Positions 40,945 through 47,224 of a DNA stretch of 64,000 nucleotides are shown piece after piece. The first letter of the stretch is position 1; each line of letters opens with the position of its first letter. Below the pieces are notes generated by a model that made no database searches, was not told the DNA's origin, and was given only the letters and a program-made list of their open reading frames with translations. The DNA is from Comamonadaceae bacterium (GTDB lineage: Bacteria > Pseudomonadota > Gammaproteobacteria > Burkholderiales > Burkholderiaceae_C): positions 1 through 64,000 of the forward strand of contig CANGME010000013.1 in NCBI GenBank assembly GCA_947455145.1, given 5' to 3'. A program made the translations under genes and the position numbers.

Positions 40945-41262
40945 TTGAATTTAACCTCTTTAGATTTGAATTGATTTGTTTGAATAAAACGGGTACGAGG
41001 CGTTAATCTGCTCCCTAAGAACGTCAGTATGTCACGCCTATGATCACGCCTATGACTTGGTTGATAACACCATGCACCTGGTCATTTTGAGGTAGATTGG
41101 TGCCACGATAACGATATTGCTTTCATAGAAATCGACTGGGATTTACTCGCTTTTCATTGGGCTAAAGAATCAGTAGCCACACTATGCTTTGAACAATTCT
41201 CCTTGGCTGACAAAAGGAAAGAGTAAAAATTCTATAAACCAGGCTGAAACGATGGACCATGA
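40945..41262. other. 318-bp divergent intergenic region
   Basis: AT-rich control region between the ModA-like operon (minus) and the HDOD gene (plus). It contains a perfect tandem pair of the 12-mer TCACGCCTATGA (41032-41055). No gene, RNA or terminator is recognised. Promoters for both operons should lie here. Confidence 0.5.
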
Positions 41263-42108
41263 ATGGACTATAAATCGATTAATTACAAAGGAATTCCGGT
41301 CCAAGCCGACATCATCTCCGGGATCATCAAACTGGAGGTAGATGCAGTTCATTGTTTCAGGGATTTGGATCGACTTGTTAGGTCGGATCAAGGGGTGGCG
41401 TCACTGGTACTGATGGTAGTGAACTCTGCCCTGTACGGCCGCAACCAAAAGGTCTCCACGATCCCGCTTGCCATCAGCTTGCTCGGATTTAACGTCGTTC
41501 GCTCACTCGCAATCTTGGCCTTTGCACGATCATTGTTTGCCCAAACGAACGACCCACTGTTCCGCCAGCATATTTGGCAGCATTCCCTGCTAACCGCACT
41601 TGCAAGTCATGACATTTGTCAAGCGCTTGGCAATGAAACAGAAAAAGACGAAGCTTTCATAGCCGGTCTAATGCACGATACCGGAAAAGTTCTGCTTTAT
41701 ACACATACCAAGGAACTCTACCTTCAAGCTTTAGCTGTGTGCCTGAGCGACGGCGGTTCCAGTGTGGAGGCAGAACAGAAAATTTTAGGCACCGATCACT
41801 GCCAAGTTGGCGCGGAGGCCGTCATTCAGTGGCGATTACCAAAGCGCTTCATCGCCTATATGGGCACAGACCGGTCCGTCGACAATCCACAAGGCAACAC
41901 AGACACAGTGGGGCTCAGCTTGGCGGCGGCGAATTTTCTGATCAAGGGCCTAGGTATTGGCTCCCGAATGATCGAGGACGTTGCAGTCAAGAGAGCTGGG
42001 TTGATATCACTTGGATTGAATGAGGCCTTGGTTGACATGCTAGTGATGGAAACGTTCACCAATAGATTGTTCGAAAGCGACATCTACAAACTCTGCATCG
42101 ACTTTTGA
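41263..42108 (+). CDS. HDOD-domain signalling protein
   Basis: A 281-residue protein made almost entirely of one HDOD domain (about 10-215). The start resembles YKGIPVQADIISGIIKLEVD, then LVLMVVNSALYG, ISLLGFNVVRSLAI and the HD pair in IAGLMHDTGKVLLY. HDOD domains act as regulatory modules in bacterial signal transduction. It is followed after 13 bp by a class III cyclase gene, so the two form an operon and may share one signal pathway. By eye the region is poorer in GC than its surroundings. Confidence 0.88.
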   Translation: MDYKSINYKGIPVQADIISGIIKLEVDAVHCFRDLDRLVRSDQGVASLVLMVVNSALYGRNQKVSTIPLAISLLGFNVVRSLAILAFARSLFAQTNDPLFRQHIWQHSLLTALASHDICQALGNETEKDEAFIAGLMHDTGKVLLYTHTKELYLQALAVCLSDGGSSVEAEQKILGTDHCQVGAEAVIQWRLPKRFIAYMGTDRSVDNPQGNTDTVGLSLAAANFLIKGLGIGSRMIEDVAVKRAGLISLGLNEALVDMLVMETFTNRLFESDIYKLCIDF

Positions 42109-42121
42109 CAAACCTTCACCC

Positions 42122-43750
42122 ATGAGTTTTCTTCAGCCTAAGCCTGTCCAACTTCATTCCATCTCGCATGACGTGTGGCAGGGACTCGAGTTGGATTTGG
42201 GACAAACCCTTACGCGACTAAAACTTACTCATTTGTCCGCCCCAACCACGCTTATCTTGCTTGATCTGATTGAAGCAGCCATAAACGCTATGCACGCACA
42301 GGTTTTTCGAAAAATCGTCGAGTCCGACTTTGGCCTCAACCAAGGCCGCGGTGATGATTACCTAGAAATACTCTACAAGACTGAGGTCAACGTACACGGT
42401 TCAGCCAATATTGCCCGCTACTGCAAGAACAACAACTGGTACATATCAGCACGCTTTTCTGACTCCCCCAACACAATCCTCAAGCTGGACTCTCCGGTAA
42501 CATTGGATAGCTCAGTTTTCAAAACCTCAAGACTGATCGATGCATTGGGTTACAGGTTGGACATAGATTCAATTCTTGACGCACAAAATGGACAACAGCT
42601 CACATTAGTAGCAGTGCCCGAAAAACAATCTCTCGCCAGCCCCACGTCTGTGCTCGATGACAAAGCCCAAGCTCTAAGCCTGTCGAACATTTTCGAAAAG
42701 TTGCAGCACGGATTGATTCAATTTTCCGGCCATGGAGAAATCGTGGCAGTTTCACCGTCTCTTCTAGCACTCTTTCGGCTCGATACAACTGCAACGGCGT
42801 TAAATGCCTTGGGGTTTGCGATTCCAAGGAATTTTTATAACGACATCATCTGGGGCGTGGCACTGTCGGACAACAACGGCATTTTTGAAAACTACCGGAT
42901 CCACGTGAAATTTCCAGATTCAGACAATGCCTCCATCTTATTTAACGTCAGTGGTTTTCGCGATGACCGCGAAATCATCCATTCACTGTGGCAAGCTGTT
43001 TCCCTAGACGAAGGCCGAACATTACTATCTGAAGGCTCCATGCTCGACGAAGTACGAATTCACAATATCACCCGTAACTATGTGCCACAACTTGTTGAAG
43101 AAAAAGCGCGTGATGCCTTGCGCCTGGGTAAAAACAAGCTAACCAACGAGATCCGCAGCGTTGCCGTCTTGTTTTGCGACATCGTTGGCTTTACCTCATA
43201 TGTCGAAACGAACGCAAACAGTGAAGCCATCATCGACACATTAAATTCCATTCTTTTGAGAGTGGCTAGTTGCGTCAAGCGCAACAATGGTTCAATCGAT
43301 AAATTTATGGGCGATTGTGTAATGGCGATTTTTGACCGCCCCTCCGATGCCTTGCTGGCTGCTTGCGACATGCAAGCTCATGCCGAAGACATCAATACGT
43401 TGCGACATCACGCTGGTCAGAAAGTTTTACAGCTTCGCATAGGCGTTCACTGGGGTGAGGTGGTCATTGGCAACGTTGGCACGGTAGAACGACTTGATTG
43501 GACTGCCATTGGAGATGTCGTCAACATCGCATCACGGATTGAAAAAGGCTGCCACCCCGGAGCAATTCTGATAAGCGATATCCTGCGCAACGCAGTCGAC
43601 CAATCAGATGATCACTTTTTTGATTTCGGAGACACGTTTCATTTAGAGGTGAAAGGGAAATGGGAAAAACTCAGTGTCTGCCAGGTTACATTGGCCTCTC
43701 ATCGAACGGATGATAGTTGTTCGGAAAATTTGCACGCCTCGGGAAATTAG
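42122..43750 (+). CDS. Class III adenylate cyclase with N-terminal ATPase-like and PAS-like regions
   Basis: A 542-residue cytoplasmic protein. Residues 345-525 form a class III cyclase domain: metal Asp D353 in FCDIVGF and D398 in DKFMGDCVMAIF, with adenine-selecting K394. WTAIGDVVNIASRIEK has Thr at the other specificity position, the class IIIb pattern. Residues 1-160 carry a conserved-looking LKLTHLSAPTTLILLDLIEA region that I cannot name with certainty. Residues 180-320 look PAS-like (FEKLQHGLIQFSGHGEIVAV). No membrane segment is seen. It would make cAMP in response to a cytoplasmic signal, possibly through the HDOD partner. Confidence 0.85.
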   Translation: MSFLQPKPVQLHSISHDVWQGLELDLGQTLTRLKLTHLSAPTTLILLDLIEAAINAMHAQVFRKIVESDFGLNQGRGDDYLEILYKTEVNVHGSANIARYCKNNNWYISARFSDSPNTILKLDSPVTLDSSVFKTSRLIDALGYRLDIDSILDAQNGQQLTLVAVPEKQSLASPTSVLDDKAQALSLSNIFEKLQHGLIQFSGHGEIVAVSPSLLALFRLDTTATALNALGFAIPRNFYNDIIWGVALSDNNGIFENYRIHVKFPDSDNASILFNVSGFRDDREIIHSLWQAVSLDEGRTLLSEGSMLDEVRIHNITRNYVPQLVEEKARDALRLGKNKLTNEIRSVAVLFCDIVGFTSYVETNANSEAIIDTLNSILLRVASCVKRNNGSIDKFMGDCVMAIFDRPSDALLAACDMQAHAEDINTLRHHAGQKVLQLRIGVHWGEVVIGNVGTVERLDWTAIGDVVNIASRIEKGCHPGAILISDILRNAVDQSDDHFFDFGDTFHLEVKGKWEKLSVCQVTLASHRTDDSCSENLHASGN

Positions 43751-43831: not shown

Positions 43832-43837
43832 TATAAT
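43832..43837 (+). promoter_or_regulatory. Probable -10 box of the tRNA-Asn gene
   Basis: TATAAT lies 11 bp upstream of the tRNA 5' end, preceded by an A-rich tract (43793-43824) that could act as an UP element. A good -35 is not visible, which is common for strongly UP-driven stable RNA promoters. Confidence 0.55.
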
Positions 43838-43848
43838 TTGAGGCTTGT

Positions 43849-43924
43849 TCCTCGATAGCTCAGTTGGTAGAGCGCCGGACTGTTAATCCGTAGGTCCCTG
43901 GTTCGAGCCCAGGTCGAGGAGCCA
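43849..43924 (+). tRNA. tRNA-Asn (anticodon GTT)
   Basis: A 76-nt cloverleaf. The acceptor stem is TCCTCGA with TCGAGGA, the D arm has AGCTCAGTTGGTAGAGC, the anticodon loop is CTGTTAA with GTT, the T arm is GGTTCGAGCCC, and discriminator G is followed by an encoded CCA. All stems pair. Confidence 0.97.
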
Positions 43925-43937
43925 CCATAAAAGTTGA

Positions 43938-43965
43938 CCCCGCCGTTGCAAAACGGCGGGGTTTT
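43938..43965 (+). terminator. Rho-independent terminator after tRNA-Asn
   Basis: A perfect 10-bp stem CCCCGCCGTT/AACGGCGGGG with loop GCAA, followed by TTTT. It ends only 26 bp before the J-domain gene, so the downstream operon must use a promoter overlapping this region or read through it. Confidence 0.85.
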
Positions 43966-43991
43966 CCCATTCAGGCATACCAAGGTTCTGC

Positions 43992-44267
43992 ATGAAAGAT
44001 CACTACGCGGCCTTAGGTGTCGGCCCTGGGGCAAGCTTGACCGAGATCAAGAAGGCCTACCGCCAGCAAGCCGCCCTGCTCCACCCCGACCGCAACCCCG
44101 CACCGAATGCAGCGGCACGGTTTCAATTGGTGCAAGAGGCCTATGACATCTTGAGCGATGACGCCAAGCGCGAGGCCTATGACAACAACCGCAAACGCAA
44201 TCTGCTTGACAGCCCGATAGACACCGCACGCGAGATCTGGTCTGACTACTTCAAACGCATCGTCTAG
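43992..44267 (+). CDS. Short J-domain (DnaJ-like) protein
   Basis: A 91-residue protein consisting of a J domain (about 1-65) with the HPD motif in ALLHPDRNPAPN. It has helices DHYAALGVGPGASLTEIKKA and VQEAYDILSDDAKREAYDNN and a short tail. There is no Gly/Phe or zinc-finger region, so it is a type III J-protein that would stimulate a DnaK ATPase for a specific client. It is first in a plus-strand run of six closely spaced genes. Its client is probably encoded among the unknown genes that follow. Confidence 0.9.
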   Translation: MKDHYAALGVGPGASLTEIKKAYRQQAALLHPDRNPAPNAAARFQLVQEAYDILSDDAKREAYDNNRKRNLLDSPIDTAREIWSDYFKRIV

Positions 44268-44307
44268 TCCCTCCATCAAGCCCATCCTTTAAAACCCGCC
44301 AAGCCCC

Positions 44308-44883
44308 ATGCAAATATCACCCTTCTTCCACAACCTGCGCTCTGCCTACCGGGCTGAACTTGATGACATGCGTTCGGACTCCGAAGGGCTCAACATCTTG
44401 AACCAGCGGCTTGCAGAGCGCCGCAGCGAGTTGGATTTTTTGGTCAGCATGATCGAGCTCAGCCCCGAGATGGTGGCTGTGGTCTTGCACAAGGCGTTTC
44501 GTTTCAACACCGCGATGGCTATGCAACAACTGTTGAGCCAAGAGCCCGAAGACTTACCCGAGTGGGACGACTTAGCCAAAACGCTTGAAATCTCCCCTTG
44601 GGCAGCGCCAGTCATCAAGACACTGCGCAAGCAGCCCGCTGGCGACTGGTTTTTGTGTGTGGCTGCCGCCCTGGAGTACATGGAGAGCCAGCCCCAGCAC
44701 ACGCATGACAGTCACGCCAGCGACGATGAAGAGGGTGACGAAGACCATGCCTCTGACGACGACAACGCAGACCGCAGCGACAAGCACCTCTCTGCCGACG
44801 ACGCAGACGACGGCGATGGACGCACCCGCGAAGAAGCCGGAGCCGACTGGATGGCCGAGCAAGGCTTTGACCGCAAAGAATGA
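44308..44883 (+). CDS. Unrecognised protein with acidic C-terminal tail
   Basis: A 191-residue cytoplasmic protein I do not recognise. Residues 1-128 look helical and mixed (NILNQRLAERRSELDFLVSM, MVAVVLHKAFRFNTAMAMQQ). Residues 129-176 are strongly acidic, rich in Asp, Glu, Ser and His (SDDEEGDEDHASDDDNADR), and probably disordered. It starts 40 bp after the J-domain gene and ends 4 bp before the next gene, so translation is likely coupled. The acidic tail could bind basic partners, metals or DNA-mimic targets; none is shown. Confidence 0.75.
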   Translation: MQISPFFHNLRSAYRAELDDMRSDSEGLNILNQRLAERRSELDFLVSMIELSPEMVAVVLHKAFRFNTAMAMQQLLSQEPEDLPEWDDLAKTLEISPWAAPVIKTLRKQPAGDWFLCVAAALEYMESQPQHTHDSHASDDEEGDEDHASDDDNADRSDKHLSADDADDGDGRTREEAGADWMAEQGFDRKE

Positions 44884-44887
44884 CGCC

Positions 44888-45637
44888 ATGAACAACCACC
44901 TTGCCCTGATCGCCAAAACCCAAAGCCTGATTGCCGCAGGCGACATCGTGGGGGCCGAGTCCGCCCTCACTGAGCTGGCCGATGCCGAGGGGGACCGCGC
45001 CCTGATGGTGGTGCTGGAGCAACTCGCCCCCAAGGACATTCTGGCCGTGATCCGCGAATACGATCAATCGAAAGAATCGATTGTGAATTTGCTCGTCACC
45101 CCAGCCCAGTTTGCCCAAGCCCTGGTGATCGAGAAGCAATACAAAGACCTCACCCACACGCACCTTCGCGGCATGGTCAACTCCATCATTTTTAGAGACA
45201 GTGCCGACCCGGTTGAGTTTTTAACCGCCGTCTCAGAGCTGGACGGCGGCAGCACCGCCATGGCCAACTACTTCTCTGAGAAGTGGGCTCGCATCGAAGC
45301 CTTCGCCCGCACCGGCACGTTTGATTCGGTCGAAGAAGATGGCGAGATGCTGTCAGAGACAGCACTGCTCGCATCGGCCTACGCCAGCCCGCGCCTAGAG
45401 CTTGATGAGGTAGCCGATGGCGACTGGATGCAACTGGCCTGGCACCTGCGCTACGAATGCCCGGACTTGTTCACCGAGACCGTGCTGGTGATGCGCGCAC
45501 AAGCCCGTGCGCAGGCGCTGGGTCTGGACTCAGAGGACTATCAAGACGACGAAGACACACGCATTGAGACTAGCGAGACCGATCGTGGTCGCGCCACTCC
45601 TGCGGCCCGCGAGGACGACGAAGAGTCGGCCATCTAA
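44888..45637 (+). CDS. Unrecognised helical protein with acidic tail
   Basis: A 249-residue protein I do not recognise. It begins MNNHLALIAKTQSLIAAGDI, with a TPR- or HEAT-like helical look in the first 60 residues (VGAESALTELADAEGDRAL). Later stretches such as WMQLAWHLRYECPDLFTETV are also helical. The last 35 residues are acidic (SEDYQDDEDTRIETSETDR), echoing the tail of the preceding gene. A longer frame from 44585 overlaps the upstream gene and is rejected. The operon position suggests a complex with its neighbours. Confidence 0.75.
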   Translation: MNNHLALIAKTQSLIAAGDIVGAESALTELADAEGDRALMVVLEQLAPKDILAVIREYDQSKESIVNLLVTPAQFAQALVIEKQYKDLTHTHLRGMVNSIIFRDSADPVEFLTAVSELDGGSTAMANYFSEKWARIEAFARTGTFDSVEEDGEMLSETALLASAYASPRLELDEVADGDWMQLAWHLRYECPDLFTETVLVMRAQARAQALGLDSEDYQDDEDTRIETSETDRGRATPAAREDDEESAI

Positions 45638-45663
45638 AGGCGAAGGCCCAAGTCACACGCGCC

Positions 45664-46911
45664 ATGTCAGACACCACCGACTCCGCTCCCCAATCCATCG
45701 CGCTATTTGACGCGCGACCCTTCTTTGAGAAGGCCTTGCAGCACGGCGTTCAGCACGGGATCATCTCCCCGGAAAAACTCATCCTCATGTGCGAGGAAGC
45801 CCCCAAAGGCATGGTGCAAATCGCCCGCTACTTCGGCACTGAGTATTTGCGCCCCGACCTGGAGCGTGCCAAAGACCGCATGGTCAACCTCATCAGCCTG
45901 TACCTGGAAGAATCTTGCGCAGGTGACTTGCACCAAGCCGCCCAAGCCCTGCGCGACAACAGCTTGCTATCTCGCTCCAAGGGCGGCTCCGACATGCTCA
46001 AGGCCTTGATCGCCCTGCCCCAGAGCAGCCACTTTGGCCTGCATGAGCGCGAAGGTTTTCAAGACGAGCACATCCCCTTGCTGGCCAAGTGGGCCCTGCG
46101 CAGCTTGCCTGACTACCACGCTGAACGGGCTGTGCGGGCGCAGACCTCGCAAGTGGTTGAAGCCGCGCTTTGGATGGCCGAGCAGCTCGAACTGGACGCA
46201 AGTGAACTCGAAGCCGCAGGCACAGATGCCGAAGCCGTGATTCGCACCGCGCTGCTCACCCGCCTGGGCAAGCGCAGCACCCTGCCCGACTGGCTGGGTT
46301 TTGAAAAAATGGTGCTCAGCCTGCGCAAAAAATTTCCCGGCACCACCCCGGCTATAGCAGCCAGTCTGTCGCTGACCCTGCCCAAAAACCTGCCTGCCGA
46401 ATGGCACGAGGTGGTGCAGACGGTGCTCGCCTCTGTAGTGGCGGATCTGCCGCGCATCCTGGACACCAGCTTGCCCGTGCGCCGCTTGTTCACCCAGACC
46501 CCCGCTTTCATGGGCCGCTATTTTTGGAGGGAAGACCCACTGGCCGAGTTGGAGCATTTTGAGCGCAGCAACTCAGCGGTGTGGGACAAGGCCACGGGCG
46601 GCCACAGCGACGACAGCTCGCTGCTCACCCTGTTCCTGCGCATTGCAACAGGCGGTAGCCACGCCACGTTGTTGAGCGAAAAATTAGCGTCCAGCTTGGT
46701 GAAGAAAATCCAAAAATCAGGCCTGGATGCCGAACTGCCCAGACAATTTATCTTGCAACACGCCCCAGCACAGCCCCAGAGCGACTACTTGCACCTGTGG
46801 GACAGCTTCATCTCAGACGCCGAACCGGTGCTGCGCAGTGACAAACCCCAAGCCACCGCCGACGCGCTGGCGCTGCTGCGGCGCGAGTGCAATATCGCCA
46901 GCTCAACTTAA
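45664..46911 (+). CDS. Unrecognised helical protein (415 aa)
   Basis: A 415-residue soluble protein, largely alpha-helical by composition (FFEKALQHGVQHGIISPEKL, LERAKDRMVNLISLYLEESC, AALWMAEQLELDASELEAAG). No catalytic motif, signal peptide or membrane segment is seen, and I cannot assign a family. It is 26 bp downstream of the previous gene and 19 bp upstream of the OB-fold gene. It could be a scaffold of repeated helical pairs. Confidence 0.75.
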   Translation: MSDTTDSAPQSIALFDARPFFEKALQHGVQHGIISPEKLILMCEEAPKGMVQIARYFGTEYLRPDLERAKDRMVNLISLYLEESCAGDLHQAAQALRDNSLLSRSKGGSDMLKALIALPQSSHFGLHEREGFQDEHIPLLAKWALRSLPDYHAERAVRAQTSQVVEAALWMAEQLELDASELEAAGTDAEAVIRTALLTRLGKRSTLPDWLGFEKMVLSLRKKFPGTTPAIAASLSLTLPKNLPAEWHEVVQTVLASVVADLPRILDTSLPVRRLFTQTPAFMGRYFWREDPLAELEHFERSNSAVWDKATGGHSDDSSLLTLFLRIATGGSHATLLSEKLASSLVKKIQKSGLDAELPRQFILQHAPAQPQSDYLHLWDSFISDAEPVLRSDKPQATADALALLRRECNIASST

Positions 46912-46930
46912 CCAGCCAGGAGCTAATAAC

Positions 46931-47224
46931 ATGATTGAAGGTCTGATTTCTGGCCACCTGGTCGGCTTGGCGGAATCCCGCCTGGGCAAAAATGACAGCA
47001 GCTTTACCCTAGCCAAGGTCAAGGCAAACACCAGCGAGACAGACCACATCATCGTCAACGTCATCACCTTCAGCACCGAAGCCAGCCACACCTTGATGGC
47101 ACTCAACGATGGAGATGCCTTGGCCTTGTCTGGTTCGCTCACACCCAAAGTTTGGACAGACAAGCAGGGTAATACCCGCCCCGCTTTGGACATGATTGCC
47201 ACGAAAATTCTCACGATTGAGTGA
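46931..47224 (+). CDS. Short OB-fold protein, SSB/PriB-like
   Basis: A 97-residue protein resembling the OB-fold of single-stranded DNA-binding proteins: MIEGLISGHLVGLAESRLGK, then VNVITFSTEASHTLMALNDG, and WTDKQGNTRPALDMIATKIL near the end. There is no acidic C-terminal tip, so it is not a housekeeping SSB but closer to PriB-sized proteins. An overlapping longer frame from 46727 is rejected. It closes the unknown operon and implies a link to nucleic acid. Confidence 0.78.
   Translation: MIEGLISGHLVGLAESRLGKNDSSFTLAKVKANTSETDHIIVNVITFSTEASHTLMALNDGDALALSGSLTPKVWTDKQGNTRPALDMIATKILTIE

Follow-up and report, generated by a model that had tools for sequence, protein, structure and literature searches.

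A tRNA-Asn gene in a 64,000-nucleotide stretch of DNA from a Comamonadaceae bacterium (hereafter the window) is followed by five closely spaced genes on one strand, which raises the question of what these genes encode and whether they belong together. An initial annotation saw in them an unrecognised operon, possibly a defence, replication or stress module sitting at a tRNA insertion site. The layout that it described, a five-gene operon behind tRNA-Asn with gaps of 4–40 bp, agrees with the coordinates (gaps of 40, 4, 26 and 19 bases between genes 1 to 5 in turn). The word "unrecognised" has to be dropped, since genes 1–4 appear to be relatives of the known atcJABC genes. The features are as follows:

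43849–43924, + strand: tRNA-Asn (GTT), upstream neighbour of the operon (ARAGORN)
43936–43966, + strand: strong hairpin then TTTT, between tRNA-Asn and atcJ (sequence)
43992–44267, + strand: gene 1 (P0001), putative atcJ homologue, 91 residues (Pfam DnaJ, NCBIfam NF050028)
44308–44883, + strand: gene 2 (P0002), putative atcA homologue, 191 residues, acidic tail (NCBIfam NF047888)
44888–45637, + strand: gene 3 (P0003), putative atcB homologue, 249 residues (relatives match NF047889; structural model)
45664–46911, + strand: gene 4 (P0004), putative atcC homologue, 415 residues, helical (relatives match NF047890; structural model)
46931–47224, + strand: gene 5 (P0005), SSB-like small protein, 97 residues (sub-threshold Pfam SSB match)

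The 67-base spacer between tRNA-Asn and atcJ folds with −25.3 kcal/mol, and the hairpin at 43936–43966 is the probable terminator of tRNA-Asn; the pattern scan for terminators, which requires five T, flagged it on the − strand only. A same-genus genome (L012) carries all five genes on a single contig in this order, and in another (L013/L151) the set is spread over two contigs. Because this order recurs within the genus and dN/dS is low for all five genes (0.04–0.12, window versus L012), the arrangement is more than chance.

Probable homology of genes 1–4 to atcJABC

The J domain that the initial annotation had seen in gene 1 is clear: P0001 matches Pfam DnaJ with an E value of 4e-24. It also matches NF050028, the NCBIfam model of a cold-adaptation J protein, at 1.4e-14 and over model positions 1–93 of 93, with a score (54.3 bits) below the curated cut-off of 150. 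P0001 is a short class C J protein with an HPD motif, and its tail carries a PX7W motif (P75 and W83). Weber, in 2023, reportedly described PX7W in a C-terminal extension of AtcJ of about 21 residues. HPD and PX7W are present in AtcJ at all of 90 close loci. Judged by eye, PX7W is found at seven of ten more distant loci, the W being replaced by S, A or F at the other three, and at three of the seven loci of a distant branch.

HMM searches and structure predictions had been proposed for the three proteins without an assignment. For gene 2, the search succeeded: P0002 matches the AtcA model NF047888 at 4.9e-7 (29.7 bits, below the curated cut-off of 200), as do seven of nine aligned AtcA members at E values up to 1 (best 5.7e-8), and none of 14 control genomes matches the model. 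No gene A is recognised at the seven distant-branch loci, and the proposal that the protein in the A position there is an AtcA homologue is unsupported (hhalign probability of 1.8).

For genes 3 and 4, the two proteins themselves gave no direct match to AtcB or AtcC, and the putative link to these families comes through some of their relatives. P0003 has no family match in Pfam or NCBIfam, including the AtcB model NF047889 (curated cut-off 440 bits). This model is matched by 5 of 16 aligned members at E values up to 1 (best 1.2e-4, the next-best family being at 0.016) and by three of five members taken singly (0.0018, 0.037 and 0.097). In a closer set of nine AtcB proteins, one matches it at 0.0012, barely ahead of an unrelated secretion ATPase model at 0.0021. 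Similarly, P0004 does not match the AtcC model NF047890 (curated cut-off 370 bits), nor any Pfam family at E values up to 10. Among 15 aligned AtcC members, ten match NF047890 at E values up to 1; the best value is 9.4e-8, with the next-best family at 0.023. Four of five members taken singly also match, from 7.7e-6 to 0.0067 and in the N-terminal part only. The predicted structure of P0004 is helical (mean pLDDT 88.4), as the initial annotation had expected for this 415-residue protein.

Neither AtcB nor AtcC has a significant sequence match among solved structures, and Foldseek finds nothing with E below 0.001 for either model; the best fold-alignment Z scores, 7.5 and 4.4, exclude no reading. 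The top three VIA-align rows for the AtcB model are cytosolic domains of MgtE (Z 7.3–7.5, rmsd 2.9–3.8, 117–125 residues aligned), and the likeness to the helical superhelix of the MgtE N domain, with Z below 8, may be taken as a lead only. Against it, Foldseek places an MgtE chain 28th (E 1.1), after unrelated helical proteins, the AtcB sequence profile gives 0.67, and Pfam MgtE_N is matched by 1 of 16 members, at 0.21. As for AtcC, Pfam DUF6178, a term not found in the literature searched, is matched by three of nine scanned distant-branch proteins in the AtcC position (2.1e-6 to 8.6e-5); one such protein exceeds the family cut-off and a fourth comes at 0.025, but P0004 itself is unmatched.

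The strongly acidic tails reported for the products of genes 2 and 3 are confirmed over the 90 loci, with a median D+E fraction of 0.36 from residue 128 onward in AtcA and of 0.33 over the last 45 residues in AtcB. The AtcA tail carries a conserved short motif, GF[DE]. The AtcB model has a helical core followed by an apparently disordered acidic tail (residues 215–249, pLDDT below 50), and the C terminus reads EE[SQL]A[IL] at 90 of 90 loci (DEESAI in P0003). Because the AtcB tail combines low pLDDT with a conserved end, the tails resemble disordered linkers with a short conserved motif at the end more than the DNA mimics suggested earlier. The conserved motifs of the AtcJ tail, AtcB and AtcA point to possible partner-binding places.

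Gene order is the other line of evidence. Among the 441 encoding stretches found, the best 80 were kept as named loci: J-A-B order is seen in all 80, with C next in 78, and the contigs of the other two end after B. The order is the same at nine of nine genome loci (C in eight, the ninth being at a contig end) and at all 90 close loci, among which every absence of C coincides with a contig end. Homology to atcJABC is direct for genes 1 and 2; for genes 3 and 4 the link passes through relatives and gene order. None of P0001–P0004 reaches its NCBIfam equivalog cut-off, so they are to be regarded as homologues and not as these equivalogs. In all, genes 1–4 are very likely betaproteobacterial relatives of atcJABC, with the corresponding DnaK-AtcJ-AtcC-AtcB network.

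The atcJABC genes of Shewanella oneidensis (SO_1850, SO_1849, SO_1848 and SO_1846) share with this locus the gene order, the tight operon, the AtcA-, AtcB- and AtcC-like partners and a short J protein that has HPD and ends in a tail of about 20 residues. They differ in that here the scores are far under the equivalog cut-offs, AtcC exceeds the NCBIfam model by about 120 residues (415 residues versus 297 model positions), an SSB-like gene is added and the operon lies behind tRNA-Asn. The atc operons are said, by Weber in 2023, to vary among beta- and gammaproteobacteria.

Distribution of the gene set and the tRNA-Asn neighbour

A core operon kept at the same place in all Comamonadaceae, the outcome against which the initial annotation had set its accessory reading, is not what is observed. 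The distribution of the atc set is patchy. Within the family, gene 3 is present in 5 of the 33 genomes that belong to other genera; in the wider order, the set turns up in 21 of 300 genomes, and 7 of the 21 are weak distant-branch matches. The neighbours change: 12 of 87 distinct loci share the commonest neighbour cluster. Neither the AtcA model nor the gene 3 profile matched any genome but the window's own in class-wide draws of 369 genomes; no gammaproteobacterial locus came from them, so the link to Shewanella rests on the NCBIfam models and the published gene order.

This patchiness, the adjoining tRNA-Asn and an SSB-like gene with plasmid relatives would suit an accessory module of anti-phage or mobile-element type that had integrated at the tRNA, but such a module is highly improbable. 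None of the five proteins has a match to a PADLOC-DB 2.0.0 model at E values up to 1, which speaks against the defence guess, and the set is very unlikely to be a new defence system. Exact 15–25 base ends of tRNA-Asn occur within the 64 kb in the tRNA itself only, with no exact repeat of the 3' end, and the G+C content of the atc genes (0.58–0.61) is close to that of the window (0.58). A tRNA lies within 3 kb upstream of atc at 14 of 90 loci, or at 12 when the 87 distinct loci are counted; the other 75 distinct loci include two with only about 100 bases upstream. The J-A-B order is constant over the 90 loci while neighbours change, and gene 3 has no relative at 1e-5 among 72,556 plasmid records. 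Nothing found marks a tRNA-bounded island, and the insertion at the tRNA proposed initially is not supported.

Proposed role in cold growth through DnaK

Growth of S. oneidensis at 7 °C is very poor when atcJ, atcB or atcC is mutated; its AtcJ binds AtcC via the last 21 residues (Kd of 7 nM, with whole AtcJ), and AtcC in turn binds AtcB (PMC6715715). AtcA is dispensable for cold growth in this species, and a meeting report states that AtcB contacts RNA polymerase. By homology, these interactions, the contact with RNA polymerase and the cold phenotype may be expected in the Comamonadaceae bacterium, whose genome encodes a DnaK above the family cut-off. The J domain of AtcJ would recruit and stimulate DnaK, and the PX7W tail would dock onto AtcC, which would then bind AtcB; through the contact of AtcB with RNA polymerase, DnaK would be directed to a specific client or site on which growth at low temperature depends. 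The known HscB/IscU pair is comparable in that a class C J protein is dedicated to a partner of the same operon (PMC6715715, discussion), but the atc operon here has neither an Fe–S scaffold nor a dedicated Hsp70 gene.

Cold growth is the likely main job of the Atc set here, and "stress module" becomes the best supported of the three initial guesses. The same complex could instead serve chiefly as a constitutive adaptor between DnaK and RNA polymerase, for another stress or client. This is rather unlikely, even if the operon of S. oneidensis is expressed almost equally from 7 to 37 °C, AtcC here has a greater length, AtcB has diverged, and the distribution across the order is patchy: J, B and C, the genes that S. 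oneidensis needs in the cold, have been retained, along with the AtcC-binding tail motif. The would-be mystery operon closes as a known and mostly ordinary set; it adds a large betaproteobacterial sample (best 80 of 441 stretches) for the study of this chaperone network.

The SSB-like fifth gene

The description of gene 5 as an SSB-like OB-fold protein stands for a small, SSB-like gene and is less secure for the fold: "OB-fold" rests on a Pfam SSB match that is sub-threshold (24.9 bits versus a cut-off of 26, E 2.1e-5), and the score against TIGR00621 is 14.4 bits versus 53.95. Canonical SSB has an acidic tip at its C terminus; P0005 lacks one and ends KILTIE. The genome has one match above the cut-off, at another place.

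The gene lies behind atcC in three of three genomes of the genus, the window's own included, and none of the other atc loci examined was seen to have it. It is an addition in this genus and not a conserved part of Atc. Relatives occur in four other genomes of the family, none of which has gene 3, and in five plasmid records of Polaromonas and Paraburkholderia (three labelled single-stranded DNA-binding protein, one labelled hypothetical, and one record without annotation); none was found in phages at 1e-5. These observations make it on balance probable that the gene is an unrelated hitchhiker of mobile-element type, outside the function of Atc, which is compatible with the atcJABC reading of genes 1–4.

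Its same-strand position 19 bases behind atcC and its retention in all three genomes of the genus point the other way, and the gene is probably co-transcribed with atc. It is under purifying selection (dN/dS 0.11 and 0.12 versus two same-genus relatives). At 0.53, its G+C content is lower than in the atc genes, yet near that of the next gene (0.55). Recruitment of the protein in this genus as a fifth working part of Atc is improbable; it would give the DnaK-AtcJ-AtcC-AtcB assembly at RNA polymerase an arm binding single-stranded nucleic acid, with R-loops, the transcription bubble or cold-stabilised RNA as example targets.

The atc gene set and its assignment

In the window, a tRNA-Asn gene is followed by five genes on one strand, separated by intergenic gaps of 40, 4, 26 and 19 bases:

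43992-44267, + strand, gene 1, atcJ homologue
44308-44883, + strand, gene 2, atcA homologue
44888-45637, + strand, gene 3, probable atcB homologue
45664-46911, + strand, gene 4, probable atcC homologue
46931-47224, + strand, gene 5, SSB-like gene

The first start of gene 5 in the ORF listing (46727) lies inside gene 4; the start is taken to be 46931, with AGGAG shortly 5' of it, which gives a product of 97 residues. This confirms the same-strand run behind the tRNA described in the initial annotation, which considered the operon unrecognised and guessed at a defence, replication or stress module. Only the stress module is supported. The atc set is already known, and the addition in the genus of the window is one extra gene.

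According to PMC6715715, Shewanella oneidensis requires atcJ, atcB and atcC for growth at 7 °C and can do without atcA; DnaK is stimulated by the J domain, and AtcC binds AtcB. The genome comparison described there covers 80 Shewanella, Moritella and Aeromonas genomes. A meeting report (PMC7871303) states that AtcB contacts RNA polymerase. In view of this published work, the set is not new, and a member in the betaproteobacteria was to be expected.

The product of gene 1 matches Pfam DnaJ and aligns with the whole of NCBIfam NF050028, a cold-adaptation J protein (model positions 1-93 of 93, E 1.4e-14, 54.3 bits, cut-off 150). General DnaJ models outscore NF050028, as happens with all J domains. 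The gene 2 product matches the AtcA model NF047888 (E 4.9e-7, 29.7 bits, cut-off 200), which has no match in 14 control genomes.

Genes 3 and 4 themselves have no direct AtcB or AtcC match, and their relatives were therefore used. In alignment A4 (16 members: gene 3 plus its relatives at 15 of 19 loci that are more diverged), 5 members match the AtcB model NF047889 at E ≤1, the best at 1.2e-4 (next family 0.016). In alignment A5 (15 members: gene 4 plus 14 of its relatives), 10 members match the AtcC model NF047890, the best at 9.4e-8 (next family 0.023). Taken singly, three of five AtcB members (0.0018, 0.037 and 0.097) and four of five AtcC members (7.7e-6 to 0.0067, N-terminal part) match their respective models. 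However, a closer set of nine AtcB proteins yielded a single match (0.0012), with an unrelated model close behind (0.0021).

Conservation and distribution of the atc loci

A scan of genome contigs for the gene 3 family gave 441 encoding stretches. Among the best 80, which were retained, the order J-A-B is found in all 80 and C follows B in 78, the two remaining contigs stopping after B. Nine further genome loci all have J-A-B, eight of them with C. Together with the window, the best 80 of 441 and these nine make 90 loci, of which 87 are distinct (three of the nine lie on contigs equal in length to those of three of the 80 and are taken as repeats). The HPD motif and, in the tail, PX7W are present in AtcJ at all 90. 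The PX7W motif was reportedly described by Weber et al. in 2023. PMC10939069 cites that work (doi 10.1111/1462-2920.16478). At one locus (L101:7980-8503), the AtcC frame stops after 166 residues near the contig end, which is either a broken gene or an edge assembly error.

Within the order, motifs were also read by eye at 17 loci that are more distant. Ten of these keep J-A-B, and C where the contig permits; PX7W is kept in seven of these, and W is replaced by S, A or F in three. The other seven (L139-L145) form a distant branch with J, B and C without a recognised A, where PX7W occurs in three and P is replaced by A in four. Profile comparison ties AtcB and AtcC of this branch to the others (E 1e-9 and 1.3e-9, respectively), and found no tie between its A-position proteins and AtcA. 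A different acidic-tailed protein occupies the AtcA place, some of the AtcC proteins match Pfam DUF6178, and the J gene of L140 is set apart from the rest, on the opposite strand.

The AtcB C-terminus reads EE[SQL]A[IL] at all 90 loci (window 45617-45634) and, by eye, in eight of the nine complete proteins of the ten J-A-B-keeping distant loci; in the distant branch it is DIF[SA] (7/7, by eye). GF[DE] occurs in all 90 AtcA ends listed, a stricter coded pattern matching 70. In the predicted AtcB model (mean pLDDT 73), a helical core is followed by a disordered tail. Kept despite the predicted disorder before it, the AtcB end looks like a partner-binding motif. The top three VIA-align rows for this model are MgtE cytosolic domains, with Z values (7.3-7.5) that are common among helical proteins, and Foldseek places MgtE 28th, behind unrelated proteins; this predicted likeness is a lead only. 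The AtcC model is confident and helical, and fold searches with it gave no clear neighbour.

Of 60 genomes, own included, 10 carry gene 3 (genus 2/2, others of the family 5/33, other families of the order 2/24), as do 21 of 300 drawn from the order, own included, seven being weak distant-branch matches, and the own genome only among 369 drawn from the class. The distribution is therefore patchy. Neighbours, compared at the 87 loci (82 with at least 1 kb upstream, 73 downstream), differ from locus to locus; with crude ORF calling, the commonest neighbour cluster is common to 12. A tRNA-Asn lies at most 110 bases upstream in 9 of the 90 loci, or 7 of the 87 distinct ones (L059, L064, L068, L100 and the three loci of the own genus). 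A tRNA of any kind lies no more than 3 kb upstream in 14 of the 90, a count in which L061 and L079 have about 100 upstream bases only. Upstream of the tRNA-Asn, the window carries a cyclase-like and an HDOD-like gene (41260-43750) and the same-genus locus L029 a LysR-like gene (names by eye); thus, the left flank is not constant within the genus.

The SSB-like gene

The SSB-like gene is present at the atc site in all three genomes of the genus, own included. Neither tblastn at the other close atc loci nor a profile search of the 17 distant loci found it, some contigs stopping shortly after C. Four other genomes of the family, all without gene 3, carry weaker relatives (30-45% identity), and five plasmid records carry others (47-54%). 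In L148 (994-5421), an integrase-like gene, so named by eye, precedes one relative by a few genes, which is in line with a mobile-element origin. The gene is taken as a captured mobile-type gene. Its dN/dS is 0.11 and 0.12 against two relatives, similar to the atc genes (0.04-0.12). Elsewhere, the genome encodes an SSB over the TIGR00621 cut-off and a DnaK.

Transcription of atcJ

Between tRNA-Asn and atcJ (43925-43991), there is a strong hairpin followed by TTTT, probably the tRNA terminator, and atcJ starts only about 25 bases after it. Because this spacing is so short, atc transcription may rely on read-through that begins at the tRNA promoter. A promoter scan found no + strand site, but says little since it also passed over TATAAT at 43832-43837, 5' of the tRNA. 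Hairpins occur at the same spot in L012 and L013, of the window's genus, and in L059, L064, L068 and L100; in the last four, the layout of hairpin and atcJ is similar.
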